From Herpetosiphon giganteus (GTDB lineage Bacteria > Chloroflexota > Chloroflexia > Chloroflexales > Herpetosiphonaceae): DNA of 53,982 nt. The stretch covers positions 1-53,982 of the forward strand of contig NZ_JAFBCZ010000038.1 of NCBI RefSeq assembly GCF_016907925.1, read 5' to 3'. The notes beneath the pieces are model-generated. The model saw nothing but the letters and a program-made list of their open reading frames with translations, was not told the DNA's origin and searched no databases. A program made the position numbers and the translations under genes. Below, in pieces: positions 8,789-21,951 of this stretch (positions are counted from its first letter, which is position 1; each line of letters opens with the position of its first letter).

Positions 8789-11700
8789 ATGGCCGCCAAT
8801 CCTCAGATCAGCAGTTTTCTGCCACGCTATGTCCTGCAACGGCTCATTGACGAGCAACAACTCCGCCAACCGCTGGCCGAAGATCAATTGGCTACGGTCT
8901 TGTTTGCCGATTTTTCTGGTTTCAGTCGGCTCAGCGAGCAATTTGCCTACGATCAAACCACGATCCTCGAATATATTTCCGATGTGCTCAACGATTCATT
9001 TAGCCAATTAATTGATACCGTGATTGCCCATGGCGGCGATGTGGTTAAATTCGCTGGCGATGCATTAATTGCCATTTGGATGGCCGATGATCTTGAGCAA
9101 CTGCGCCAAACAACTCAGCTTGCAGCCCAATGTGGCCTAGCGATTCAAGCAAGCTTCACCTTGCCAAGTGCTGCTGAACGCTTGGCAATTCGGGTGCAAA
9201 TTGGGGCTGGCTCAATTTCAAACTTTATCGTGGGCGGCGTGAATAATCATTGGGAACAGTTGATCAGTGGCGAGGCTTTGCTGCAAGTCCATTTGCTTGG
9301 CTCGCAAACCCATGCTGGCCAAGTCGTCATCTCGCCAGAAGCGCGCTCGTTGATTCGCGAGCAAGGCCAAGGCGAGGATTTACGCGCCCAAGCCTTTCGC
9401 TTAACTGGCTTAGTTGAAAATCTGCCCTTGCCTGAAATCAATCAGTCGCTGCCCAACTACCCAACTGAACAATTGACTCCGTTTATGCCAACTGCGGTGA
9501 TTGCGCGCATTAATGCAGGGTTGCACGAATGGCTGGCCGAATTGCGCCATCTGAGTGTGATGTTTATTAATGTGCCAGCCTTGAGCTTTTTCACCACCCT
9601 TGAGCAGGTGCAAGCAGCGATTAGCGCGTTGCAAACGGTTATTTTTCGCTACGAAGGCAGCATCGATAAATTATCGGTTGACGATAAAGGCGTGAGCTTG
9701 TTGGCGGCCTTTGGCTTGCCGCCGCTCTCACATCGCGATGATGCTGAACGCGCTGTGCGAGCTGCCCTCGAAGCCTCGACCGCACTGACCAAATTGAGCC
9801 TGACTCACACAATTGGCATTGCAACTGGCCCAGCCTTTTGTGGCGAAATTGGCAATAGCCAGCGGCGCGAATTTACCATGATTGGCGATGTGGTTAATCG
9901 GGCTGCGCGCTTGATGGAAGCCAATCTTGCGCCAATTTTATGCGACCAAACCACCGCCCAAGCTAGCCAACAGCAGGTGCGTTTTCAAGTATTGCCGCCA
10001 ATTATGATCAAAGGCAAAAGCCAGCCAATTACGATTTATCGCCCGCAACAAACCAATTATAGCCCCGACCAGATTCGGCCTCGGCGTTTGATTGGCCGCC
10101 GCCGTGAGCGTGGCCAGATTGAGCAGCTTTTTACCCAAGCTCTGCCCACAATCCAACATCTGATGCTCACTGGCGAGAGTGGCATGGGCAAATCGGCTTT
10201 GTTGTATGAGGCGGTCGAAATTGCCGAGCACTATGAGCGCCAAGCCTTGCTGATCACCAGCAGCAGCCTGCGCCAATCGGCCCAATATCCTGGCTGGCGC
10301 TTGTTGCTTGAGGCCTGTTTGGCGGTTGAGCAATGGCCACATCAAGCCAGCCAATGCTATCAATTAATTATTCAACGCTTGCAATTGCCCGACCAATTGG
10401 CCAAATCGGTGCAGCTGTTGCACGATGTTTTGGAATTACCTGGCCGTGCCGAAAGCAACGCCACGCTTGATCAAGCCCAACAAGTGCAAATCATTCATGA
10501 ATTAATTGGCCATGCACTCAGCCAACTCCATCAGCAAAAACCCTTGGTCTTGTGCATCGATAATTTGCAATGGTTTGATTCGCTGGCGCTCAACACGCTT
10601 GAGCAGCTCTTGCAACAACAGCCTGAGATTATTTTAATTACGACTGCACCGACCAAACTAGCAGGCCTTGCAGCCCAACAGCTTTTGCACTTGCAAGCGC
10701 TTGATCCAGTGGCTTGTATTGCGGTCGTCGCCCAATCGTTGGGCGTGCAGGCAATCCCACCAAGTGTGGCCGCGTTTATTAATCAACGGGCTGCTGGCCA
10801 TCCTTTGTGGAGCATCGAGCTTGCTCAGGCCTTGCGCAACGCTGGCATGATTCGGATCAACAACGGCATTTGCAAGCTTGATCAATTTAGCCAGCTTGAA
10901 AAACTCAATTTGCCAAGCACCATCCAAGGGGTGTTGGTCAGCAGGATTGACCAACTGCCTCCGCAGCCCCAATTGACGCTGAAAATCGCTAGCGTGATTG
11001 GCCATGAGTTTCAGGTGCAGCTGCTTGAGGCGATTTATCCGTTAGCCCACGAACGTGAGCATATTCCAGCTCACCTCGACTTGCTTGTGCAGCAAGGGTT
11101 TATTCACGAGGCCAGCGAGGGCTATCGATTTAGCCAAGCAATTATTCACGATGTAGCCTATTCGTTGTTGCTCTTTGGTCAACGGCGGGCTTTACACCGC
11201 GCGATTGCCGAGTGGTACGCCAGTGAACATCCGCATTTGGCCGAGGCTGGCAGCAGCCTTTTGGCCCACCACTGGAGCCATGCGATTGATCCAGATGAGC
11301 CAGAAAGCCGCCAGCCAGCGATTGAGGCCTTGCAACGGGCTGGTGAGCAAACGCTGCTGCGCTGTAGCTATCGCGAGGCAATTCCCTTTTTCGAGCGCGC
11401 CTTGCATTTGTTGGCAGTTGATGATGATTTTGCTGCTCAACAACAAATTGTGCGCATGCAATTCAATTTGAGCCAAGCCCGCTGGCGTTTGGGCGACCAC
11501 AGTATGGCCCTGACCAATTTGGATTCGGCGTTGGTAACCGCTCAACGGATTGGCGATGGCGTGGGTGAGGCCGATGTGCTCCGCCAATTTGGCAATATCG
11601 CCTATGTGCAAGGCGATTTGTACACCGCCCAACAACATTTTTCGGCCAGCGTCAATCGGGCGCGCCATGCCAACTACCACAGCGGGATTATTAGCGGGGT

Positions 11701-12184
11701 GAGCAATGTTGGGGTTGTGGCGTTTGCGCGGGGCGATTATCAGGTTGCGCGTGAAGCCTATCGCGAAGGCTTGGCAACCTCGCGCGAGCAAGGCCACGAT
11801 TTTGGCATCGCGGTCAACCAGCTTAATCTTGGTGGCTTGGCAATTGTTGAGCAAGCATGGGACGAAGCACGCCATTATCTTTATGAAGCGTTAAACTTGG
11901 GCTATACCAAACATATGACCTTAGTATGTTTACATAGTTTGGTTGCTTTGGCAGAATGGCGGTTAGCAACCAATCAAGCTGAAGCCAGCGCCAATTTGAT
12001 TCAGATCGTGCTGCATCACGAAGCAATTGATAGTGAAATCCATGCAGCGATCGATAAACTGAAACCACAGTTGATTCAAATTTTGGGTGAAACCCAATGG
12101 CTAATTTTGAGCCAGCGTCCAACCACGCCATTTGAGCAAATTATCCCAGCGATTGTGCAAGAATTGGCGACTGAACAGCACTAA
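8789..12184 (+). CDS. Soluble-adenylyl-cyclase-like protein: two cyclase domains, AAA ATPase, TPR
   Basis: A 1131-residue cytoplasmic protein with the architecture of soluble adenylyl cyclase. Cyclase domain C1 (about 30-190) has both metal aspartates, D41 in LFADFSGF and D91 in KFAGDA, but no Asn/Arg transition-state pair. C2 (about 245-410) lacks the first Asp (FINVPA) but has K294, T363, N370 and R374 in the spacing used for ATP selection and catalysis. The two domains together can build one active site. An AAA/STAND-type ATPase follows (Walker A GESGMGKS 462-469, Walker B VLCIDNLQWFD), then TPR-like helices from about 870. AAAGGA nine bases upstream supports the start. It probably makes cAMP; the signal is unknown. 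The Arg of the bicarbonate site was not found. Confidence 0.87.
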   Translation: MAANPQISSFLPRYVLQRLIDEQQLRQPLAEDQLATVLFADFSGFSRLSEQFAYDQTTILEYISDVLNDSFSQLIDTVIAHGGDVVKFAGDALIAIWMADDLEQLRQTTQLAAQCGLAIQASFTLPSAAERLAIRVQIGAGSISNFIVGGVNNHWEQLISGEALLQVHLLGSQTHAGQVVISPEARSLIREQGQGEDLRAQAFRLTGLVENLPLPEINQSLPNYPTEQLTPFMPTAVIARINAGLHEWLAELRHLSVMFINVPALSFFTTLEQVQAAISALQTVIFRYEGSIDKLSVDDKGVSLLAAFGLPPLSHRDDAERAVRAALEASTALTKLSLTHTIGIATGPAFCGEIGNSQRREFTMIGDVVNRAARLMEANLAPILCDQTTAQASQQQVRFQVLPPIMIKGKSQPITIYRPQQTNYSPDQIRPRRLIGRRRERGQIEQLFTQALPTIQHLMLTGESGMGKSALLYEAVEIAEHYERQALLITSSSLRQSAQYPGWRLLLEACLAVEQWPHQASQCYQLIIQRLQLPDQLAKSVQLLHDVLELPGRAESNATLDQAQQVQIIHELIGHALSQLHQQKPLVLCIDNLQWFDSLALNTLEQLLQQQPEIILITTAPTKLAGLAAQQLLHLQALDPVACIAVVAQSLGVQAIPPSVAAFINQRAAGHPLWSIELAQALRNAGMIRINNGICKLDQFSQLEKLNLPSTIQGVLVSRIDQLPPQPQLTLKIASVIGHEFQVQLLEAIYPLAHEREHIPAHLDLLVQQGFIHEASEGYRFSQAIIHDVAYSLLLFGQRRALHRAIAEWYASEHPHLAEAGSSLLAHHWSHAIDPDEPESRQPAIEALQRAGEQTLLRCSYREAIPFFERALHLLAVDDDFAAQQQIVRMQFNLSQARWRLGDHSMALTNLDSALVTAQRIGDGVGEADVLRQFGNIAYVQGDLYTAQQHFSASVNRARHANYHSGIISGVSNVGVVAFARGDYQVAREAYREGLATSREQGHDFGIAVNQLNLGGLAIVEQAWDEARHYLYEALNLGYTKHMTLVCLHSLVALAEWRLATNQAEASANLIQIVLHHEAIDSEIHAAIDKLKPQLIQILGETQWLILSQRPTTPFEQIIPAIVQELATEQH

Positions 12185-12338: not shown

Positions 12339-12701
12339 ATGCCGACGATTTTAGTGATTGAAGATATTCCTGACAATGCTGCTTTGGCGCGCCGAGTTTT
12401 GAATGCCTATGGCTATTCGGTGCTCGAAGCGGCTGATGCTGCCAGTGGCTTGGATATGGCGCTCGAACAACATCCCGACCTGATTTTGCTTGATTTGGGC
12501 TTGCCTGATGCCGATGGCCAAACAGTGGCTGGGGTATTGCGCGGTACGCCTGAAACCCAAAACATTCCGATTGTGGTTTTTACCGCTTGGCCCGAAGAAA
12601 CCGCCCGCCAAATGGTTCGTGCCTATGGATGTAACGGCTTTATTCGCAAACCGCTGTCAGTTGTTGATTTTGCTCAAGCGATTGCCAGTTACCTCTCCTA
12701 A
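12339..12701 (+). CDS. Single-domain response regulator receiver
   Basis: A 120-residue CheY-like receiver without an output domain. The acidic pair lies in VIEDIPDN, the phospho-accepting Asp in LILLDLGLPD (about residue 53), the Thr in VVFTAW and the Lys in FIRKPL. AGAGG precedes the ATG. It lies 154 bases after the cyclase gene and 26 bases before the GNAT gene. It could be a phosphate sink or protein-protein switch for one of the hybrid kinases. The partner kinase is unknown. Confidence 0.88.
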   Translation: MPTILVIEDIPDNAALARRVLNAYGYSVLEAADAASGLDMALEQHPDLILLDLGLPDADGQTVAGVLRGTPETQNIPIVVFTAWPEETARQMVRAYGCNGFIRKPLSVVDFAQAIASYLS

Positions 12702-12727: not shown

Positions 12728-13594
12728 ATGACAACAGATGGTTTTCACGATGGTTCGGCCATAGAGCTTACTCCCGCAGCCAGCTTTACCATTGATGAAT
12801 TGGTCGCAATTTATAACCAGACTCGGATCGATTATATTGTGCCAATGCCAATGAACAGCCAGCGGCTCGCTGAATATATTCGGTTATATGATGTTAACTT
12901 AGATGCCTCGTTTGTCGCCAAGGCCGATGGCGACATTATGGGCCTGGCAATGCTGGGCGTGCGCCGCGACCATGCCTGGGTTACCCGGCTGGGCGTGTTG
13001 CCCAATCGGCGCAAGGGTGGCATTGGCCGCGCCTTGATGATCGCAATGGTCGAAGCTGCGCGTCAGCATTGGCTTAAATATGTGCAGCTTGAAGTTATTT
13101 TGAATAACACGCCAGCGCATAAGCTTTTTTTGGCGCTCGGCTTTGAGGAAACCAACCAACTGCTGGTGATGCGGCGGCCTCCAGGCCCAGTCAAAATTCC
13201 CGCAGTTGGCTCGGTCGAATGGCTTGATTGGTCGCAATTGCAACGGCTCGTGCGCCAACAAGCGCAAGGCGTGCCATGGACCAACCAAGCTGATTCCTAT
13301 GACCATATGGCTATGGTCGAAGGGTGCCGCGTAAGTTTGCCCGATGGTGGCCGTGGTTGGTGCATTTTCCGTCGCCAACCGTTGGTCATGTCGCATATTC
13401 GGTTGCATACTGAAGCTGGCGATCCTGAGTCGGTTGGTTCAGCCTTGCTGAGCCATGTGCACCAACGTCATAGCCGCTTGGATACGCAAGCAGAAAATAT
13501 TTGCTGCGATGACCCACATTTGACCGCCTATACCAACCATGGCTATATCGAAGCCTTCCAACGAATTGAAATGCTATTAAACCTTATCCAATGA
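12728..13594 (+). CDS. GNAT-family N-acetyltransferase
   Basis: A 288-residue protein with an N-terminal GNAT fold. The acetyl-CoA pyrophosphate-binding motif RRKGGIGRAL lies at about residues 96-105, preceded by VTRLGVLPN, and is followed by the VQLEVILNNTPAHKLFLALGF core (given here in part). The C-terminal 130 residues form a second, weaker GNAT-like half, as in many tandem acetyltransferases. An AAGGA site precedes the start. The acceptor is unknown. Distance to the upstream receiver gene (26 bases) allows co-transcription. Confidence 0.84.
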   Translation: MTTDGFHDGSAIELTPAASFTIDELVAIYNQTRIDYIVPMPMNSQRLAEYIRLYDVNLDASFVAKADGDIMGLAMLGVRRDHAWVTRLGVLPNRRKGGIGRALMIAMVEAARQHWLKYVQLEVILNNTPAHKLFLALGFEETNQLLVMRRPPGPVKIPAVGSVEWLDWSQLQRLVRQQAQGVPWTNQADSYDHMAMVEGCRVSLPDGGRGWCIFRRQPLVMSHIRLHTEAGDPESVGSALLSHVHQRHSRLDTQAENICCDDPHLTAYTNHGYIEAFQRIEMLLNLIQ

Positions 13595-13782: not shown

Positions 13783-16700
13783 ATGGCTAGTGGAATCTCG
13801 CATAGCACATTGAATAACATTCGGCTCAAGCGCATTCTTCGCTTTGGTATTTTTACCATGATTGTTGGCTTCATCATGGCAATTCCCTATGGCTTAGAAG
13901 CAGTGCGCGTGCCATCGTGGCAAAATTACATGAGCCTGATCAGCATTGTTGTGGCAACAATCGGTGGCTTGTGTGCAACGATCTCCGCCCGACAAGGCTG
14001 GCTGATCGCTGGGGCCTATAGTTTAATTATCGCGATTGCGGTTGCCACCTTTCCGAGCCAGCTCTTTATTGCTGAGTTTGGCTTTATGCTCTCGATTTTA
14101 AATGTCTTCTTTGTGCTGGTTATCTCGATCCAAACCCTCCCCGAACGCCATATTTTCCCAGTTATCTTGGGGATTATTAGCCTTGGCGTGATTGCAACCT
14201 TGCTCAAAACCTTCCTCAATATTCAAGAGGTTCGGGTTTCGGGCAATCAAGAAATTTATATGCCTGTGATGGCTATCGCAGCCATATTAATCTTGATTTT
14301 CTTTGTCTTTCGCGAATTTGGCACGCTCTCAATTCGCAATAAAATTCTGATCTCGTTTGTGCTGGTAACAACGCTGCCAATTGCGGTTATTTCGTTTATT
14401 ACCCTGCGCTCAACCAGAACGTCGCTGACCAACCAAGCCAATAGCCTGATTTTGGTCAACGCGACCAATATTGCCAACGAAATTGACGATTTTGTCAATC
14501 GGAATATCAACCGCGTCAGCGCACTCTCGCGGATTCCTGAACTCAGCGAATATTTGCTGGCCGCCGAACAAAACACCTTGGTTCCCGACCAAGATCGCGA
14601 TACCCGTAACTTGTTCCGCGCAGTTACCACCGAAAATAACGATACGCTCTCGGTTGCGTTGCTGAATAATCGCGGCATTGTCTTGGTCGATACCGTGCCA
14701 ACCAACGTTGGGGTCAACGATTCAGGCCTGTCGTATTATCAAAATGCGATTCGCACTGGCCAAAGCATTATTTCGCCAGTTACCTTCGGCAATGATAATT
14801 TGCCTTCAATTTATTTCAGTACGCCGGTGCGTAACCCGCAAAGCCAAGAAATTATCGGCGTTTTGCGGATTCGCTACAGCGCCAGCATTATTCAATCGCT
14901 GGTTGCGCGCAGCAACGACCGCGCTGGGCAAAACTCATTCGGGGTTGTGCTTGATGAATATGGCATGCGCATCGCCCAAGGCAGCGAATTAACCCTTTTG
15001 TATAAAATTGCCGATAGCTTGCAACCAGATGAAATTAAACGCTTGCAAGACGAACGGCGCTTGCAAAATATCAATGCATCCAACCTGCTTGTGCCATATC
15101 CAGCCTTGATTAATGCAATCAAGGGCGTGGTGCTCGATCCCCAAAGTACTGGTCAAGTGATCACGATTCCAAGCTCGGTTGCTGAAGAGCAAAAACCAGG
15201 CGATCCTGATCCTGAAGGCAACGATATTTATGCCTACACAGCGACCAAAACCGTGCAATGGCGGATTCTCTATCACCAAAGCGAATCGACCTTCTTAGCG
15301 CCAATTCGGCAATCTGAGCGTTCGACAACCTTGATTGTGTTGGTGCTTTTGGTTGGGATTAGTATGATCGCTGTCTTTGCAGCGCGCATTCTGACCACGC
15401 CAATTGAACGTTTGACCGCTTTTGTGGAGCGCTTCCGCGCTGGCGACTTATCAACCCGTGCGCCAGTAACCTCGCAAGACGAAATTGGCCAGCTCACGAC
15501 AACCTTTAATAGTATGTCGGAGCAGTTGGCCCAAACGCTGCAAGGCTTGCAACAACGCACAATCGCCTTGGAAACCTCCAACGAGGTCAGCCGCCGCCTC
15601 TCAACGATTTTGAATCCCAACCAATTGGTGTTGGAAGTGGTTGAGCAGCTCAAAAATACCTTCAACTACTATCACGCTCACATCTACTTGGTTGATCAAC
15701 AAACCAATGATTTTGTGATGATGGGTGGTACGGGGCAAGCAGGTCGCACGTTGTTGGCCCGCAATCACCGCATTCCGCAAGGTCGTGGTTTGGTTGGACG
15801 CGCCGCCAGCACCAAAGATGTGGTGTTGATTCCCGACGTGAGCAAAGAAGCAGGCTGGTTGGCAAACCCATTGCTACCCGAAACGAAGGCTGAAATTGCT
15901 GTGCCAATTATGCTGGGCGATGAAGTGCTCGGCGTGTTGGACGTACAAAATGCTGAAGTCAATTCGTTGACCAACGATGACGCAACCTTGCTTCAATCGA
16001 TTGCAGCCCAAGTGGCGGTTGGGTTGGAAAATGCCCAATCGTTCGAAGAAATCAATCGCACTCAAGAACTGCTGCGGATTCGTGAACGCGCAATCACCGC
16101 TAGTAATGACGGGATTGTAATTGTTGATCCCTATCAGTTTGATATGCCAGTGGTGTATGTCAACCCAGCCTTCGAGCGGATTACTGGCTATACGCCTGAA
16201 GATGTGCTTGGCAAAAATTGCCGTTTCTTGCAAGGCGATGATAGCGACCAACAAGGCTTGCGCGAATTACGTCATGCCATTCGTGAAAAACGCGCTACGC
16301 GTGTGTTGTTGCGCAACTATCGCAAAGATGGCACGTTGTTCTGGAACGAACTCGACATCAACCCAGTCTTTGATGAAAACGGCGAGTTGATCAACTTTAT
16401 CGGCGTTCAACAAGATGTTAGCGAGCGGGTTGAGGCCCAACAAGCCTTGCAAGAATCCTTAGGCTTCCAGCAAACCATGCTTGATAGCGCCAACTATATG
16501 ATTATTGCAACCTCGCTCGATGGCAAAATTACCTCGTTCAACCGCACTGCCGAGCAAATGCTTGGTTATGAGGCTCACGAAGTTATTGGCCAGAATCTGC
16601 TTGACTTAGCCAATGATCCTGGAGAAGTTGAGCAATTTACCAATCAATTGCGTAAGCAAACAGGCATGACCTTGAGCAACCACGATGCCTTGGTCTATGA

Positions 16701-19416
16701 TGCCCAGCGCGGACGGCCATCAAACACTGAATGGACGTATGTGGCCCGTGATGGTCGGCGCTTCCCCGTCTTGCTGTCGATTACGGCGTTGCGTGACCGC
16801 CAAGGCGAAGTAACTGGCTACCTTAAAATCGCCAATGACATTAGCACGGCCAAGCAACAACAACAAGCCTTGCGTGATAGTGAAACCCGTTATCGCTCGC
16901 TGGCTGAATCATCACGCGATTTGGTCTTCATCTTCGACCGCGAAAATCGCTTGCAATATATCAACGATTTTGCGGCTGGGATTTTTGACAAGAAACCTGA
17001 TGACTTGGTTGGCTTGCTTGATGAGCAAATTTTCTTGCCATCAACGGTTGAAGCGCGCCGCGAAGATGCAGAAATTATTTTCAATACTGGTCAGAGCCTT
17101 ACTCGTGAGTCAATGTTTACCTTGAGTGGCGAGGAAACCTGGTTCGACTTCCAGTTGCTGCCAATTCTTGATGATCAAACCAACAGCCCAGATTTGATTA
17201 TGAGCGTTGGTCGTAACATTACCGACCGTAAGCGCGACGAACAAGAACGTGAACAAACCTTGCTCGAAATTGACCGCCAACGCCGAACGCTGCAAGGGAT
17301 TCTCGAAGCCTTGCCGGTGGGTGTAGTGGTCTATAACGCGCAGTTCGAAATGCAATTGCGCAATCAAAGCGCTGAATTAATTGTCGGGCAACCATTGGGT
17401 GACGTTGATTCCGAGCAGTTGGAATCGATTAGTGATGCCTATAAACTCTTCATTCCTGGGACGGATACCCCATTTGATCCCAACATGATTCCTGTGTTCC
17501 GCGCTTTGCAACATGGCGAGCGGGGCCAAGCTGAATTTGATATTCGTCACGCTGATGGTCGCAGCTTCACAGTGTTGGCCAGCGGTGCACCAGTATTCAA
17601 CAACGAAGGCCAAGTTATTAGCGGCATTGCCTTGCTGCAAGATATTACTGACCGCAAGCTGAACGAACAAGAACGTGAACGCTTGTTGCAAGCAACAATT
17701 GAACAAGAACGCTTGCTCACAGCGATTCTCGATAACATGCCGATTGGCGTGTACGTGGTCAATAACAAGGGTGTCAGCCAGTTGATCAACCGCTCGACGA
17801 TGGAAATCTTGGGCGTAGCTGGCCAGATGGGCGCTGCGGTCTTAGACCAAGCAGACTTGCCACGACCGAAGTTCTTGCATGAATCCACCGATAAAGAATT
17901 GGAAGTGCATGAAACTGGCTTGTTCAAAGCCCTAAGCAGCAAAAAGGTCACCCACGAGTTGGTTGATGTGATGCGCTTTGATGGCAGTCGGGTTTCTGTC
18001 GATTCAACCTCAGTGCCAATGTTCGACGAGAACCAACAATTGACCGGCGTGCTTTCGCTGATTCAAGATGTGACTGAACAACGCAACGCTCAGCGCGAGC
18101 GTGAACAACTGCTGACCCAAGTGGAATATCGCGCACTCGAACTCGAAACCGTGGCCCAGGTGAGTACCTCGGCGGCTGGTCTGTTGAATGTGGAAGAATT
18201 GCTGCAAACGGTGGTTGATCTGACCAAACATCGTTTCGGTCTCTACCACGCTCACATCTATTTGTACAACCCTGATGACCAACAATTTGAGTTGGCCTTC
18301 GGGGCTGGCGAAATTGGCCGCACCATGGTCAAGGAAGGGCGGACAATTCCACTAGATCGCGAGCAATCGCTGGTGGCGCAAGCTGGTCGGGCACGCCGCT
18401 CAATTATTGAAAATGATGTGCGTTCAAACCCAAGCTTCTTGCCGCACCCACTCTTGCCCGAAACCCGCGCTGAAATGGCTACGCCGCTGATCGCTGGCTC
18501 GATGCTCTTGGGTGTGCTCGATATTCAATCAGACAAAGACCACATCTTTACTGATGATGACCGCAAGATTCAAACAACCTTGGCCAGCCAAATTGCCATC
18601 GCCTTGCAAAATGCGCGCTTGTTCGTGGAGCAAACCGCCACAATGCAGCGCTTGCAAGAGCTTGACCAACTCAAATCGGCCTTCTTGGCCAATATGTCGC
18701 ACGAATTGCGCACACCGCTCAACTCGATCCTTGGCTTTACCGAGGTTATTCTCGAAGGCATCAACGGGCCAATCAACGACCTGATTCATAATGACTTGAG
18801 CATTATTCATCGTAACGGTCGCCACTTGCTCAACTTGATCAACGACATCTTGGATATGGCGAAGATCGAATCTGGCAAGCTGACCTTGTTCCGCGAAACC
18901 TTCGATGTGGTTGAAGTGTTGCATGAAGTTGCTAGCACGGTTGGGCCATTAGCCACCCAGAAACATCTGGAACTGAAGGTCGATATTGAACCGCAGCTCA
19001 AACTGCCAGTCTATGCTGACCGTTTCCGCATTCGCCAAGTATTATTGAACATCGTAGGCAATGCCTTGAAATTTACCGAGCAAGGTTCGGTGATAATAGG
19101 CATTGACACAACGCCAACGACCCGTATGATTAAAATCCAAGATACAGGCATCGGGATTCCGTTGGATAATCAAGACACGATTTTCATGGAATTCCATCAG
19201 GTTGACAATTCGACAACCCGTAAGGCGGGCGGTACGGGCTTAGGCTTACCAATCAGTCGCCACTTGGTAGAAATGCACGGCGGCAAACTTTCAATGGTCA
19301 GTACTGGCAATCCTGGTGAAGGCTCGCTCTTCACAATTGAATTGCCAATCAACGCCAGCGAAGATGAAGTTGATCCTAACGAAGCGCCAGCCAATCAGCC
19401 TATATCTGTAGAGTAA
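13783..19416 (+). CDS. Giant membrane sensor histidine kinase with LOV, PAS, GAF and Cache-like domains
   Basis: This 1877-residue kinase begins with about six membrane helices (about 18-180), then a further helix, a Cache-like extracytoplasmic region (about 210-500), another helix and a HAMP domain (526-585). Cytoplasmic sensors follow: GAF (about 600-755), a LOV-type PAS (770-885), four more PAS domains (890-1026, 1030-1153, 1165-1295, 1310-1436) and a second GAF (1460-1616). The LOV domain has the GKNCRFLQG flavin signature with adduct-forming Cys813, plus NYRKDGTLFWNELDINPV and FIGVQQDV. HisKA has His1640 in MSHELRTP, and HATPase shows DTGIGIP and GTGLGLP. There is no receiver. The next two genes carry receivers and are likely phosphorylation targets. 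Output is inferred. Confidence 0.92.
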   Translation: MASGISHSTLNNIRLKRILRFGIFTMIVGFIMAIPYGLEAVRVPSWQNYMSLISIVVATIGGLCATISARQGWLIAGAYSLIIAIAVATFPSQLFIAEFGFMLSILNVFFVLVISIQTLPERHIFPVILGIISLGVIATLLKTFLNIQEVRVSGNQEIYMPVMAIAAILILIFFVFREFGTLSIRNKILISFVLVTTLPIAVISFITLRSTRTSLTNQANSLILVNATNIANEIDDFVNRNINRVSALSRIPELSEYLLAAEQNTLVPDQDRDTRNLFRAVTTENNDTLSVALLNNRGIVLVDTVPTNVGVNDSGLSYYQNAIRTGQSIISPVTFGNDNLPSIYFSTPVRNPQSQEIIGVLRIRYSASIIQSLVARSNDRAGQNSFGVVLDEYGMRIAQGSELTLLYKIADSLQPDEIKRLQDERRLQNINASNLLVPYPALINAIKGVVLDPQSTGQVITIPSSVAEEQKPGDPDPEGNDIYAYTATKTVQWRILYHQSESTFLAPIRQSERSTTLIVLVLLVGISMIAVFAARILTTPIERLTAFVERFRAGDLSTRAPVTSQDEIGQLTTTFNSMSEQLAQTLQGLQQRTIALETSNEVSRRLSTILNPNQLVLEVVEQLKNTFNYYHAHIYLVDQQTNDFVMMGGTGQAGRTLLARNHRIPQGRGLVGRAASTKDVVLIPDVSKEAGWLANPLLPETKAEIAVPIMLGDEVLGVLDVQNAEVNSLTNDDATLLQSIAAQVAVGLENAQSFEEINRTQELLRIRERAITASNDGIVIVDPYQFDMPVVYVNPAFERITGYTPEDVLGKNCRFLQGDDSDQQGLRELRHAIREKRATRVLLRNYRKDGTLFWNELDINPVFDENGELINFIGVQQDVSERVEAQQALQESLGFQQTMLDSANYMIIATSLDGKITSFNRTAEQMLGYEAHEVIGQNLLDLANDPGEVEQFTNQLRKQTGMTLSNHDALVYDAQRGRPSNTEWTYVARDGRRFPVLLSITALRDRQGEVTGYLKIANDISTAKQQQQALRDSETRYRSLAESSRDLVFIFDRENRLQYINDFAAGIFDKKPDDLVGLLDEQIFLPSTVEARREDAEIIFNTGQSLTRESMFTLSGEETWFDFQLLPILDDQTNSPDLIMSVGRNITDRKRDEQEREQTLLEIDRQRRTLQGILEALPVGVVVYNAQFEMQLRNQSAELIVGQPLGDVDSEQLESISDAYKLFIPGTDTPFDPNMIPVFRALQHGERGQAEFDIRHADGRSFTVLASGAPVFNNEGQVISGIALLQDITDRKLNEQERERLLQATIEQERLLTAILDNMPIGVYVVNNKGVSQLINRSTMEILGVAGQMGAAVLDQADLPRPKFLHESTDKELEVHETGLFKALSSKKVTHELVDVMRFDGSRVSVDSTSVPMFDENQQLTGVLSLIQDVTEQRNAQREREQLLTQVEYRALELETVAQVSTSAAGLLNVEELLQTVVDLTKHRFGLYHAHIYLYNPDDQQFELAFGAGEIGRTMVKEGRTIPLDREQSLVAQAGRARRSIIENDVRSNPSFLPHPLLPETRAEMATPLIAGSMLLGVLDIQSDKDHIFTDDDRKIQTTLASQIAIALQNARLFVEQTATMQRLQELDQLKSAFLANMSHELRTPLNSILGFTEVILEGINGPINDLIHNDLSIIHRNGRHLLNLINDILDMAKIESGKLTLFRETFDVVEVLHEVASTVGPLATQKHLELKVDIEPQLKLPVYADRFRIRQVLLNIVGNALKFTEQGSVIIGIDTTPTTRMIKIQDTGIGIPLDNQDTIFMEFHQVDNSTTRKAGGTGLGLPISRHLVEMHGGKLSMVSTGNPGEGSLFTIELPINASEDEVDPNEAPANQPISVE

Positions 19417-19465
19417 TGGTTATGCGCATTGTGCCAAGGCATAAGCGCGTGGTGGTAAGGGCGTT

Positions 19466-21103
19466 ATGACAGATTTAGTTTGCCAAAACTGTGGCCATAT
19501 TCAGCCATACACCTTTCGTAGCTCGAATAGCTGTGCCCAATGCGCGAACGATTGGCTTGAAACTCATTACGATTATGCGAATTTTCGCGAGTTGGTGAAT
19601 AATCAACAACTGACTGGCCAGACGTTATGGCGCTATGCCAGCGTCTTGCCAGTGCCTGCGCCAAGCTCGCCAACCTATGTTGGCGGCACGCCCTTGGTGC
19701 ATGCCCAGCGCTTTGGCGGTTTGTTGGGCTTGCCCCGCTTGTATATCAAAGATGAGCGCTATAGTCCAACCAACTCGTTTAAAGATCGGCAGGCGGCGGT
19801 GGCGGTGGCGGCCTTGGTTGCCAACAACATTCGCGAATGCGTGATTGCCTCGACTGGTAATGCAGCGGTAGCTTATGCAGCGGCCTGTGCAGCAGCAGGA
19901 ATCAAGCTGTGGGTTTTTATGACCAGTGTTGTGCCAGAGGCCAAATTGCGCGAGGCGGCCTTGTTTGGGGCCGAGGTCATCAAAGTGAGTGGCAATTATG
20001 ATCAAACCAAGCAGATTGCCGCAGATTTTGCCCAAAACCGCAATATTATCTACGACCGTGGGGCCAATAGCATTCCTGCGCGCGAAGCCATGAAAACGAT
20101 TAGCTACGAGATTTGCGAGCAACTTGGCTGGCAAGCGCCCGATTGGTATATTCAGGCGGTGAGCGGCGGCCTAGGGCCGTTAGGCGTGTATCATGGCTTT
20201 GCAGAATTGCATGCCATGGGCTTGACCCAGCGGGTGCCGCAAACCGCCATTATTCAAGCTGATGGCTGCTCGCCGATGGTCCAAGCCTTTCATGCTGGCA
20301 AATCGGTGGCCGAAAAAGTTGTGCCAAACACCAGAATCGCGATTCTTTCGACTGGCGATCCAGGTAAAATTTATACCCGGCTCTGGCAGCGCATCCAAAC
20401 TTCGGGCGGCACGATGGAAGCAGTGACCGATGAGGAAGCGTTTAGTGCTATGCGCTTGTTGGCCCGTACCGAAGGCATTTCGGTCGAGCCAGCGACGGCG
20501 GTGGCATTTGCTGGCCTGCAAAAGATGGTCGCCCAAGGCCAAGTTAACCCAGAAGAACTAATTGTGGTAAATTGTACCGGACACACCTTTCCGGTCGATA
20601 AGCATGTGCTGAATGATCAATGGCACATCGATGTGCATGTGAGCGATACGCAGCAATCAGCACCCCAAGAAGGCTTGCTTGCGGCGCTTGAGCAATTGAA
20701 CGAAAAAGCAACAACGGTGTTGTTGATTGATGATAATCCTGACGATGCAGAATTGGTGCAACGAATCTTAGAGCGCCGCAAAGCCTATCGGGTCTATCGG
20801 GCTAACGATGGGGCTGATGGCGTGCGCCAAGCAATTGAGCGCTTGCCCGATGCAATCGTGATGGATTTAATGATGCCCAACATGGATGGGTTTCAGGTGA
20901 TGAGCACTTTGCGTCAGCACCCCAAGACCCGTGATATTCCGATTATTGTGGTGAGCGCTAAGGATATTACGCCCGATGAACGCCATCATTTAGCCACCCA
21001 TACCCGTGCTGTGTATCAAAAGGGCTCACTTTCACCGGTTGCCTTTGTCGAACAGGTTGTGAGTGTCATTGAACACAAAGAGCGTGATAGTGAGGACCAA
21101 TGA
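19466..21103 (+). CDS. PLP-dependent threonine-synthase-like enzyme fused to a response-regulator receiver
   Basis: This 545-residue protein joins two families. Residues 1-30 form a four-Cys zinc ribbon (C6, C9, C23, C26). Residues 50-395 are a fold-type II PLP enzyme close to threonine synthase, with Schiff-base Lys106 in SPTNSFKDR, phosphate-binding ASTGNAA, glycine loop SGGLGPLG and late VNCTGHTFPVD. Residues 418-540 are a CheY-like receiver with IDDNPDD, phospho-accepting Asp467 in VMDLMMP, VVSAKD and an atypical YQKGSL at the switch-Lys position. TAAGGG precedes the ATG. It is 49 bases after the giant kinase and overlaps the next receiver by four bases. Phosphorylation probably tunes the enzyme or its partners (inference). 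The reaction could be threonine synthesis or another PLP reaction. Confidence 0.9.
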   Translation: MTDLVCQNCGHIQPYTFRSSNSCAQCANDWLETHYDYANFRELVNNQQLTGQTLWRYASVLPVPAPSSPTYVGGTPLVHAQRFGGLLGLPRLYIKDERYSPTNSFKDRQAAVAVAALVANNIRECVIASTGNAAVAYAAACAAAGIKLWVFMTSVVPEAKLREAALFGAEVIKVSGNYDQTKQIAADFAQNRNIIYDRGANSIPAREAMKTISYEICEQLGWQAPDWYIQAVSGGLGPLGVYHGFAELHAMGLTQRVPQTAIIQADGCSPMVQAFHAGKSVAEKVVPNTRIAILSTGDPGKIYTRLWQRIQTSGGTMEAVTDEEAFSAMRLLARTEGISVEPATAVAFAGLQKMVAQGQVNPEELIVVNCTGHTFPVDKHVLNDQWHIDVHVSDTQQSAPQEGLLAALEQLNEKATTVLLIDDNPDDAELVQRILERRKAYRVYRANDGADGVRQAIERLPDAIVMDLMMPNMDGFQVMSTLRQHPKTRDIPIIVVSAKDITPDERHHLATHTRAVYQKGSLSPVAFVEQVVSVIEHKERDSEDQ

Positions 21104-21480
21104 GTACAACCGTTGTCTTATATATCGAAGATAACCCTGATAATATGTTGTTGGTGGAGCGTCTGTTAATTGCTCGTGGCTGCCAGATGGTCAAAGCGAT
21201 CAATGGCTCGACGGGGATTGAACTGGCGTTAGAACACACGCCCCACATTATTTTATTGGATATTAACTTGCCGGATATTGATGGCTATGAAGTGGCGCGC
21301 CGCTTGCGCGATAACCCCATAACCGCCACGATTCCGATTGTGGCCGTAACCGCCAACGCACTCAAGGGCGACGCTGAAAAGGCCTTGGCTGCTGGCTGTG
21401 ATGGCTATGTTTCCAAGCCAATCAACCTGCGCGATTTGTGGAACGCCATGTTGCAGTTTATTCAAGCGCCGTCGGCCTAA
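21100..21480 (+). CDS. Single-domain response regulator receiver
   Basis: A 126-residue CheY-like protein with IEDNPDN acidic pocket, Asp53-region motif IILLDINLPD, VTANAL (Thr) and YVSKPI (Lys). Its ATG overlaps the stop of the PLP-enzyme-receiver gene (ATGA), so translation is coupled. Together with the kinase two genes upstream it forms a phosphorelay set: one kinase without receiver and two receivers. The DIVK-like sequence of this receiver is typical of phospho-shuttle proteins. Function is inferred from context. Confidence 0.9.
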   Translation: MSTTVVLYIEDNPDNMLLVERLLIARGCQMVKAINGSTGIELALEHTPHIILLDINLPDIDGYEVARRLRDNPITATIPIVAVTANALKGDAEKALAAGCDGYVSKPINLRDLWNAMLQFIQAPSA

Positions 21481-21502: not shown

Positions 21503-21534
21503 AAGCGGTAGTTGAATTGCTTCAACTACCGCTT
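21503..21534. terminator. Bidirectional intrinsic terminator
   Basis: A perfect 14-base stem, AAGCGGTAGTTGAA (21503-21516) and TTCAACTACCGCTT (21521-21534), has a 4-base loop. On the minus strand the stem is followed by a T run (complement of 21498-21504), so it best ends the leftward receiver gene. On the plus strand it closes the kinase operon with a weaker T-rich tail. Confidence 0.9.
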
Positions 21535-21558: not shown

Positions 21559-21951
21559 TTAGCTATACCATGGCTTGGATTGATTGGAACCGGCGAGCCA
21601 AAGCTTGACCTTCTCCATTAATGACATAACGTCGAAGGGCTTGCTGACATAATCAGTCCAGTCGGGGGTCATCAATTGCTTGACTTCGCCAGGGCTGCAA
21701 CTCGCAGTTAACGCTACAATCGGGATATGAGCCAAGTGTGGGCTAGCTTTGACCGTCCGGCAGACTGTCCAGCCATCCATGCGTGGCAAATTCAAATCAA
21801 GCAATACAAGGTCTGGTTGGCTCTTTTGAATAGCTTCCAGGGCTTCGACCCCATCACGAGCCATCTCGGTTGTATAACCAGACCGTTGGAGCATTATTCC
21901 TAAAAGCTGACGGTTGTCAGGCATATCATCAACAACTAAGATGGTTGGCAT
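21559..21951 (-). CDS. Single-domain response regulator receiver
   Basis: A 130-residue CheY-like receiver starting MPTILVVDDMPDN, with the phospho-accepting Asp in LVLLDLNLPRMDG, VALTAS and YVSKPF. AGGAG eight bases before the ATG at 21951 decides the start over the in-frame ATG at 21996. It is convergent with the kinase/PLP-receiver operon and shares its terminator. It may be another partner of the same kinase or of an unlinked one. Confidence 0.9.
   Translation of the reverse strand: MPTILVVDDMPDNRQLLGIMLQRSGYTTEMARDGVEALEAIQKSQPDLVLLDLNLPRMDGWTVCRTVKASPHLAHIPIVALTASCSPGEVKQLMTPDWTDYVSKPFDVMSLMEKVKLWLAGSNQSKPWYS

Follow-up and report, generated by a model that had tools for sequence, protein, structure and literature searches.

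A fold-type-II PLP domain fused to a complete receiver and encoded beside a sensor kinase in Herpetosiphon giganteus and other Chloroflexota

Introduction

Can a sensor kinase act directly on a metabolic reaction, through a receiver that the enzyme itself carries? The question is raised by a locus of Herpetosiphon giganteus that lies in a stretch of 53,982 nt of contig NZ_JAFBCZ010000038.1 (assembly GCF_016907925.1), called the window here. A gene of this locus (19466-21103, + strand) encodes a 545-aa protein that joins a PALP domain, of the fold-type-II pyridoxal 5'-phosphate (PLP) class, to a C-terminal receiver (REC) domain; it is flanked by the genes for a membrane sensor histidine kinase (1877 aa, 13783-19416, + strand) and a stand-alone receiver, REC2 (126 aa, 21100-21480, + strand). 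Response regulators with enzymatic output domains include CheB, PleD and RpfG, and PALP-fold enzymes are a class regulated by small ligands. Metabolic enzymes with attached REC domains are also known, the archaeal fusions being lineage-limited according to the section of PMC5847659 that treats them, and the AAT-fold lysine, ornithine and arginine decarboxylases carry REC-derived wings, as described in the part of PMC8503589 drawn upon here. We consider it fairly probable, judging from sequence and gene context, that the Herpetosiphon protein is an enzymatic response regulator, that is, an active PLP enzyme from a separate subfamily of the threonine-synthase superfamily, with its C-terminal receiver as an allosteric switch. 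This reading rests on the fusion, the conserved active residues, the gene order, purifying selection and the distribution of the gene.

Results and Discussion

Organization of the fused protein and its kinase

The first-pass annotation had described a 1877-residue kinase devoid of a receiver, a gap of 49 bases between it and the enzyme gene, a 4-base overlap of the latter with REC2, and a PLP enzyme ending in a complete receiver with Asp467 as phospho-acceptor; all of this was borne out by the open reading frames, the Pfam matches (threshold E 0.001) and the conserved site residues. Pfam places PALP at residues 71-372 (E 7.8e-74) and Response_reg at residues 418-509 (E 1.6e-18) of the fused protein. 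Its PALP domain comprises residues 1-376 (19466-20593, + strand), with the PLP lysine Lys106 and an N-terminal CxxC...CxxC arrangement (Cys 6, 9, 23 and 26). A linker of 36 residues that is conserved in the alignment (377-412; 20594-20701, + strand) leads to the receiver (413-540; 20702-21085, + strand), which contains the acidic pair Asp422/Asp423, the phospho-acceptor Asp467, Ser497 and Lys519. The positions of Lys106 and Asp467, like those of REC2 Asp54 and of the kinase residues His1640 and Cys813, were assigned by family motif in the translations.

The kinase has a hydrophobic N-terminus followed by dCache_1 (215-400), HAMP (532-583), GAF, PAS repeats, a further GAF, HisKA (1631-1698, with the His1640 codon at 18700-18702, + strand) and HATPase_c (1746-1856). 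Pfam recognizes four PF13426 stretches among the PAS repeats, and TIGR00229 five. One PAS domain is of the LOV type by its motif GKNCRFLQG (residues 768-889, Cys813; 16084-16449, + strand).

The fusion is genuine and occurs in two Chloroflexota groups

All 80 relatives kept from a first search have the receiver in frame with the PALP domain, 77 with a single receiver and three with two, and they come from Herpetosiphon and mostly from Anaerolineae. That search covered one genome per GTDB species, scanned with six exact 8-residue Herpetosiphon patterns. It turned up 99 relatives, and the 80 best of them were retained; its query (residues 1-401) took in half of the linker and one scan pattern lies in the linker, which tilts the result towards fused copies. 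To lessen this bias, residues 1-382 were searched against 301 Chloroflexota genomes. Of these, 33 genomes under ten family labels gave 42 matches with an identity of 48% or more, all in open frames of at least 551 aa, and the receiver lies in the same frame in each of the 30 that were checked, a set overlapping with the first-search and further loci. Those further loci (L125-L138; L numbers denote loci and G numbers genomes) are wider stretches of DNA around 14 of the 27 matches whose identity is 48-56%, and all 14 contain the fused receiver. The first match below the 42 has 39% identity and a frame of 437 aa. For the remaining 12 of the 42, the length of the frame does not by itself cleanly establish fusion: some matches below 40% identity have frames of 500-537 aa by way of an over-long N-terminus, two inspected proteins of G212, whose frames measure 537 and 585 aa, lack the receiver and have such an N-terminus, and a doubtful long frame in G152 is an unfused second PALP gene (PALP2) adjoining the fusion.

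Among 41 genomes around the window, the enzyme is present (E 1e-60) in the six members of the genus Herpetosiphon and in none of the 35 others, and its frame of 551-552 aa contains no internal stop in any of the six. That the fusion might be an artefact or a frameshift of two genes, a doubt raised at first pass, is ruled out by these six genomes, in none of which a stop separates the domains, together with the 80 fused relatives. Since none of three other genomes of the family Herpetosiphonaceae and none of 32 other genomes of the order gave a match at that threshold, horizontal transfer into Herpetosiphon is possible. No plasmid record covers at least 80% of the fusion (895 records match part of it). 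The Anaerolineae loci derive almost all from metagenome-assembled genomes. Locus L088, on a metagenome-assembled contig labelled Herpetosiphon sp. isolate IMS_BF, carries a 65%-identical fusion of the Anaerolineae style with PALP2, unlike the named Herpetosiphon records, which are 96-99% identical; its label or binning may be wrong.

A FastTree phylogeny placed the loci in three groups: A, containing the window, L017 and 73 others; B, containing 14 loci (L093, L125 and L127-L138); and C, containing L090, L091, L092 and L126, in all of which the PALP domain is followed by two receivers. In the rerooted tree the 73 carry a support label of 0.90, the 73 together with Herpetosiphon one of 0.14, A+B one of 1.0 and A+B+C one of 0.80; labels of this kind can end up on the wrong node when a tree is rerooted, and no conclusion rests on them.

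Both halves of the protein retain their functional residues

Lys106, S129-T-G-N132, the SGGxGP residues, Asp423, Asp467 and Lys519 are invariant in all 80 relatives, and Asp422 and Ser497 are each replaced once (by Glu and Thr, respectively). The PLP residues are likewise intact in the 14 further enzymes, and Lys106, S129-T-G-N132, SGGxGP, G372 and H373 are retained in 92 of 92 aligned relatives, with Thr or Ser at position 371. The linker is well conserved, and an alignment of 72 sequences agrees with the site picture from the 80 relatives. Comparison of the window with H. aurantiacus gave dN/dS values of 0.029 for the PALP domain and 0.026 for the fused receiver; the linker, with just 36 codons, has a value of 0.034. 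The other values are 0.045 in REC2, 0.104 in the kinase and 0.006 in RECup, a receiver encoded upstream of the kinase. Both the PALP and the receiver domains are under purifying selection, and both halves of the fusion look active by their residues. The sequence marks of a response regulator are present: the acidic pair, the phospho-acceptor Asp, the Ser/Thr and the Lys, with a histidine kinase encoded alongside.

Signalling genes abound in the rest of the locus (for GAF, dCache, substrate-binding and receiver proteins), a setting that would suit a PALP domain that is non-enzymatic and serves as a PLP- or amino-acid-binding sensor, or as a scaffold, tuning the receiver or the kinase. We regard this as improbable, as the PALP residues listed above are intact in 92 of 92 relatives, dN/dS is equally low in the PALP domain and the receiver, and a transporter gene lies downstream in 11 of the 14 group-B loci. 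The converse idea, that it is the receiver that has no regulatory task and acts as a structural add-on fixing the oligomeric state without phosphorylation, is modelled on the REC-derived wing of the E. coli lysine, ornithine and arginine decarboxylases. These enzymes have the AAT fold, which is fold type I. They too join a REC-derived domain to a PLP enzyme, in the account given in the consulted part of PMC8503589; their wing is N-terminal, whereas the protein described here has a PALP fold, a C-terminal receiver, a full phosphorylation site and a kinase neighbour. Phospho-site residues would be superfluous in a domain with a purely structural role, yet Asp423, Asp467 and Lys519 are kept in 80 of 80 relatives and Asp422 and Ser497 in 79, with a kinase beside the fusion in 79, and this explanation is accordingly very improbable.

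The enzyme resembles threonine synthase and is probably not the housekeeping one

A sequence search of the PDB returned threonine synthases as the closest solved structures, and no PDB sequence spans both domains (best 60 of 113 matches). With threonine synthases of the PRK08197 and Thermus types, the fused enzyme shares the fold-type-II PLP domain and the four-Cys N-terminus that is also found in PALP2. The window protein clears the cut-off of TIGR00260 (thrC) narrowly, at 170.6 vs 167.1, as does that of L018 (174.2). In 36 of 80 loci PALP2 follows closely on the downstream side; the one examined, from L034, is of the PRK08197 threonine synthase type, scoring 575 bits where the cut-off is 303. 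In addition, the EamA family, to which the group-B transporters belong, includes threonine/homoserine exporters (RhtA). All this speaks for a true threonine synthase, a second isozyme acting on O-phosphohomoserine, through whose receiver the kinase would set threonine flux.

Several lines of evidence make such an isozyme rather unlikely. The TIGR00260 cut-off is missed by the group-B protein of L130 (151.1), and that of PRK08197 is missed by the proteins of the window (240.8), L018 (252.6) and L130 (264). The P[YH]RxEG motif, which has a phosphate-binding role, occurs in the own-genome ThrC and in 35 aligned PALP2 genes (consensus P-Y-R-x-E-G), with PYR and PHR in two PDB sequences; it is missing from the fused enzymes, whose sequence differs there and which fix SFKDRQ, SGGxGP and GHT instead. 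The Arg position of the motif is variable, being R in 70, K in 6, H in 1 and V in 1 of 78 first-search enzymes, and I in 5, R in 4, V in 3, K in 1 and T in 1 of the 14 further ones. A literature search directed at the phosphate site of threonine synthase gave no hit. Besides having an extra receiver, the fusion is never the only ThrC-like gene in its genome: separate unfused ThrC-like genes are present in all 33 carrier genomes, and a canonical ThrC (at least 53% to the own-genome one) is present in 27 of them. A homoserine kinase above the TIGR00191 cut-off was found in 7 of 11 carrier genomes searched, beside the canonical ThrC in all seven; it stayed below the cut-off in G102, G095 and two Herpetosiphon genomes (G000 and G001), and TIGR00938 was above its cut-off in none of five genomes searched. 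All 11 genomes have a homoserine dehydrogenase.

G102 and G095 (98-99% complete) each keep two fused enzymes without a canonical ThrC and without a homoserine kinase (thrB) above the cut-off. The lack of thrB in these two genomes is only a hint, because Herpetosiphon has ThrC without a recognized homoserine kinase. In G000 and G001, which have ThrC and homoserine dehydrogenase, neither TIGR00191 nor TIGR00938 gives a homoserine kinase above its cut-off, and Herpetosiphon possibly has an unrecognized one.

Because P[YH]RxEG is missing and unfused ThrC-like genes exist in all 33 carriers, the fused protein is probably not the housekeeping threonine synthase, a candidate identity that was demoted to a rival on these grounds although TIGR00260 is narrowly cleared. 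The same two findings tell against phosphohomoserine, which the first-pass annotation had put forward as the likely substrate.

The kinase and its receivers

A kinase gene lies directly upstream of the fusion in 79 of 80 loci and is adjacent in 13 of the 14 further ones. The spacing between kinase and enzyme genes is -5 to 60 bases in 71 of the 79, the other eight consisting of seven longer overlaps and one 74-base gap. A separate receiver gene follows the fusion in 78 of 80 loci (76 by a stricter count); it is absent from L021, which reaches a contig end, and from L093, and that of L065 carries two receivers.

The first-pass suggestion of a phosphorelay fits less well than a branched two-component system, since no Response_reg or Hpt match (Pfam, E 0.001) occurs along the 1877 aa of the window kinase, although kinases in 13 of the 14 group-B loci have receivers of their own (the remaining one, L125, has no kinase). 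For the window, the simplest scheme would be such a branched system comprising two or three receivers. Light, which had been proposed as a signal, did not prove a general input. The LOV core motif G.NCR[FM][LI]Q was found in the upstream kinases of the window and three Herpetosiphon relatives (3 of 80 loci) and, outside Herpetosiphon kinases, in one upstream sensor of L092; it is absent from the other open reading frames above 150 aa in the 80 and the 14 loci (L125-L138), some of which end inside the kinase. Given this restricted distribution, light may be one input in Herpetosiphon and does not appear to define the system.

From the anatomy, the conserved sites and the gene order, we propose the following scheme. 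The upstream multi-sensor kinase would integrate signals and autophosphorylate on His1640, and would then phosphorylate Asp467 of the fused receiver, with Asp54 of REC2 as a second branch. The phosphorylated receiver would act through the 36-residue linker on the PALP domain and change its activity, and the enzyme would make or remove an amino-acid-like molecule other than housekeeping threonine. In group B, the product may leave the cell through the EamA-type transporter encoded nearby.

Some observations weigh against this scheme. No kinase lies beside the fusion in L091 (of the 80 loci) or L125 (of the 14). Partial correlations of divergence, calculated from 69 of the 80 loci with all four parts (74 remaining after L015, L016 and L090-L093 were dropped), show a weak link of kinase to fused receiver (0.14) against 0.54 for the PALP domain and the fused receiver; with values of 0.25 for kinase-REC2, 0.29 for kinase-PALP, 0.37 for fused receiver-REC2 and 0.19 for PALP-REC2, they single out no kinase target. 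No EamA gene was found in group A, the group of the window, in which PALP2 or a RECup-GNAT pair occurs downstream instead. The narrow TIGR00260 matches of the window and L018 proteins belong on this side as well.

Neighbouring genes in the relatives

In the first-search loci, multi-GAF proteins without kinase cores often lie upstream (among the matches listed). Annotated examples have dCache or PDC with HAMP (L018, L034 and L070) or an ABC_sub_bind domain (L034), and separate binding proteins of the NMT1 type (L070) and the phosphonate-binding type (L075) are encoded near fusions. The fusion-adjacent kinase is short in L018, L034 and L070 and long in others. Because the Herpetosiphon kinase resembles both joined in one chain, this arrangement suggests that multi-GAF sensors and short kinases work together. 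A gene for a ParA/MinD-type ATPase (AAA_31), which may position a signalling complex, precedes the hybrid kinase in eight of the 14 group-B loci (L129-L132, L134 and L136-L138), and a ParA-type ATPase gene occurs in five first-search loci. In L128, three tandem S-adenosyl methyltransferase genes (Methyltransf_19, PF04672; 3558-6141, + strand) stand directly before the hybrid kinase and the fusion.

Downstream of REC2, the 36 loci with PALP2 are joined by eight of 80 with a receiver-GNAT pair. The two never co-occur downstream (hypergeometric 0.002 on 71 loci, a weak figure given the relatedness of the loci and a base other than that of the counts). The PALP2 genes have a four-Cys N-terminus like that of the fused enzyme. 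The EamA-type transporter gene of group B lies downstream on the same strand in 11 of 14 loci (with one gene between in L127). In L135 it has the opposite orientation, and L125, L128 and group C yielded none. Three EamA proteins checked have TIGR00950 (carboxylate/amino acid/amine transporter) as their sole NCBIfam match, far below the cut-off, and an EamA protein had no match in the PDB. This transporter gene is the best hint of a small-molecule output, and since it was found in group B only, group A having PALP2 or RECup-GNAT, no product can be read from the context. Phosphorylation-gated synthesis of a dedicated amino-acid-like compound, with EamA export in one group and processing or supplementation by an acetyltransferase or second PLP enzyme in the other, would amount to a sensor-triggered chemical signal or secreted-metabolite pathway, and the two-component system would have an output other than transcription or motility; we put this forward only tentatively.

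Other features of the window

The stand-alone receiver RECup (Asp52; 12339-12701, + strand; Pfam and motif) and its partner, a GNAT-family acetyltransferase of 288 aa (12728-13594, + strand; Pfam), form a pair that is probably part of the same module as the fusion, because a homologous pair sits downstream of the fusion in eight of 80 relatives. Just 5' of the module lies a gene (8789-12184, + strand) for a protein of 1131 aa in which Pfam identifies adenylate/guanylate cyclase, AAA and TPR domains; a cyclase near a fusion elsewhere was seen as a weak match in L034 alone, among the matches listed. A terminator-like inverted repeat with a 14-pair stem (21503-21534), revealed by a hairpin search, separates REC2 from a convergent gene for a lone receiver (Response_reg; 21559-21951, - strand). 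The region contains 15 such hairpin sites vs 11.6 expected, so this one is supported by position and length only. A convergent lone receiver is present in L015-L017 too.

Comparison with known systems and implications

Threonine deaminase (ACT-type) and cystathionine beta-synthase (CBS) are PALP-fold enzymes with C-terminal regulatory domains that sense ligands. The fusion has the same layout and differs in that its regulatory domain is a phospho-receiver. With the REC-enzyme response regulators treated in PMC5847659, it has in common an intact receiver on an enzyme, a kinase next door and a lineage-limited distribution; no PALP output is named in the section of that work devoted to them, and here the enzyme is N-terminal and of an amino-acid-metabolism type. 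The regulators in that section are restricted to one family or genus, whereas this fusion spans ten Chloroflexota family labels.

The first-pass annotation had taken the enzyme-receiver unit to be unusual and undescribed, and this view stands: an intact receiver on a metabolic-type PLP enzyme beside a kinase is conserved, and no account of a PALP-receiver fusion was found in the literature searched, at the level of titles and abstract openings; an earlier mention in surveys of the field is possible. REC-enzyme fusions are known in kind; the PALP class and the conserved operon appear undescribed in that literature.

The retention of the fusion and its sensor-kinase neighbours across two distant Chloroflexota groups suggests that signals switch a small-molecule reaction directly. 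If this is true, these cells would bypass transcription, a sensor kinase directly switching an amino-acid-type reaction, and two-component control would extend to a PALP-fold enzyme. A metabolite important enough to stay with its sensors in both Herpetosiphon and the Anaerolineae would be indicated as well.

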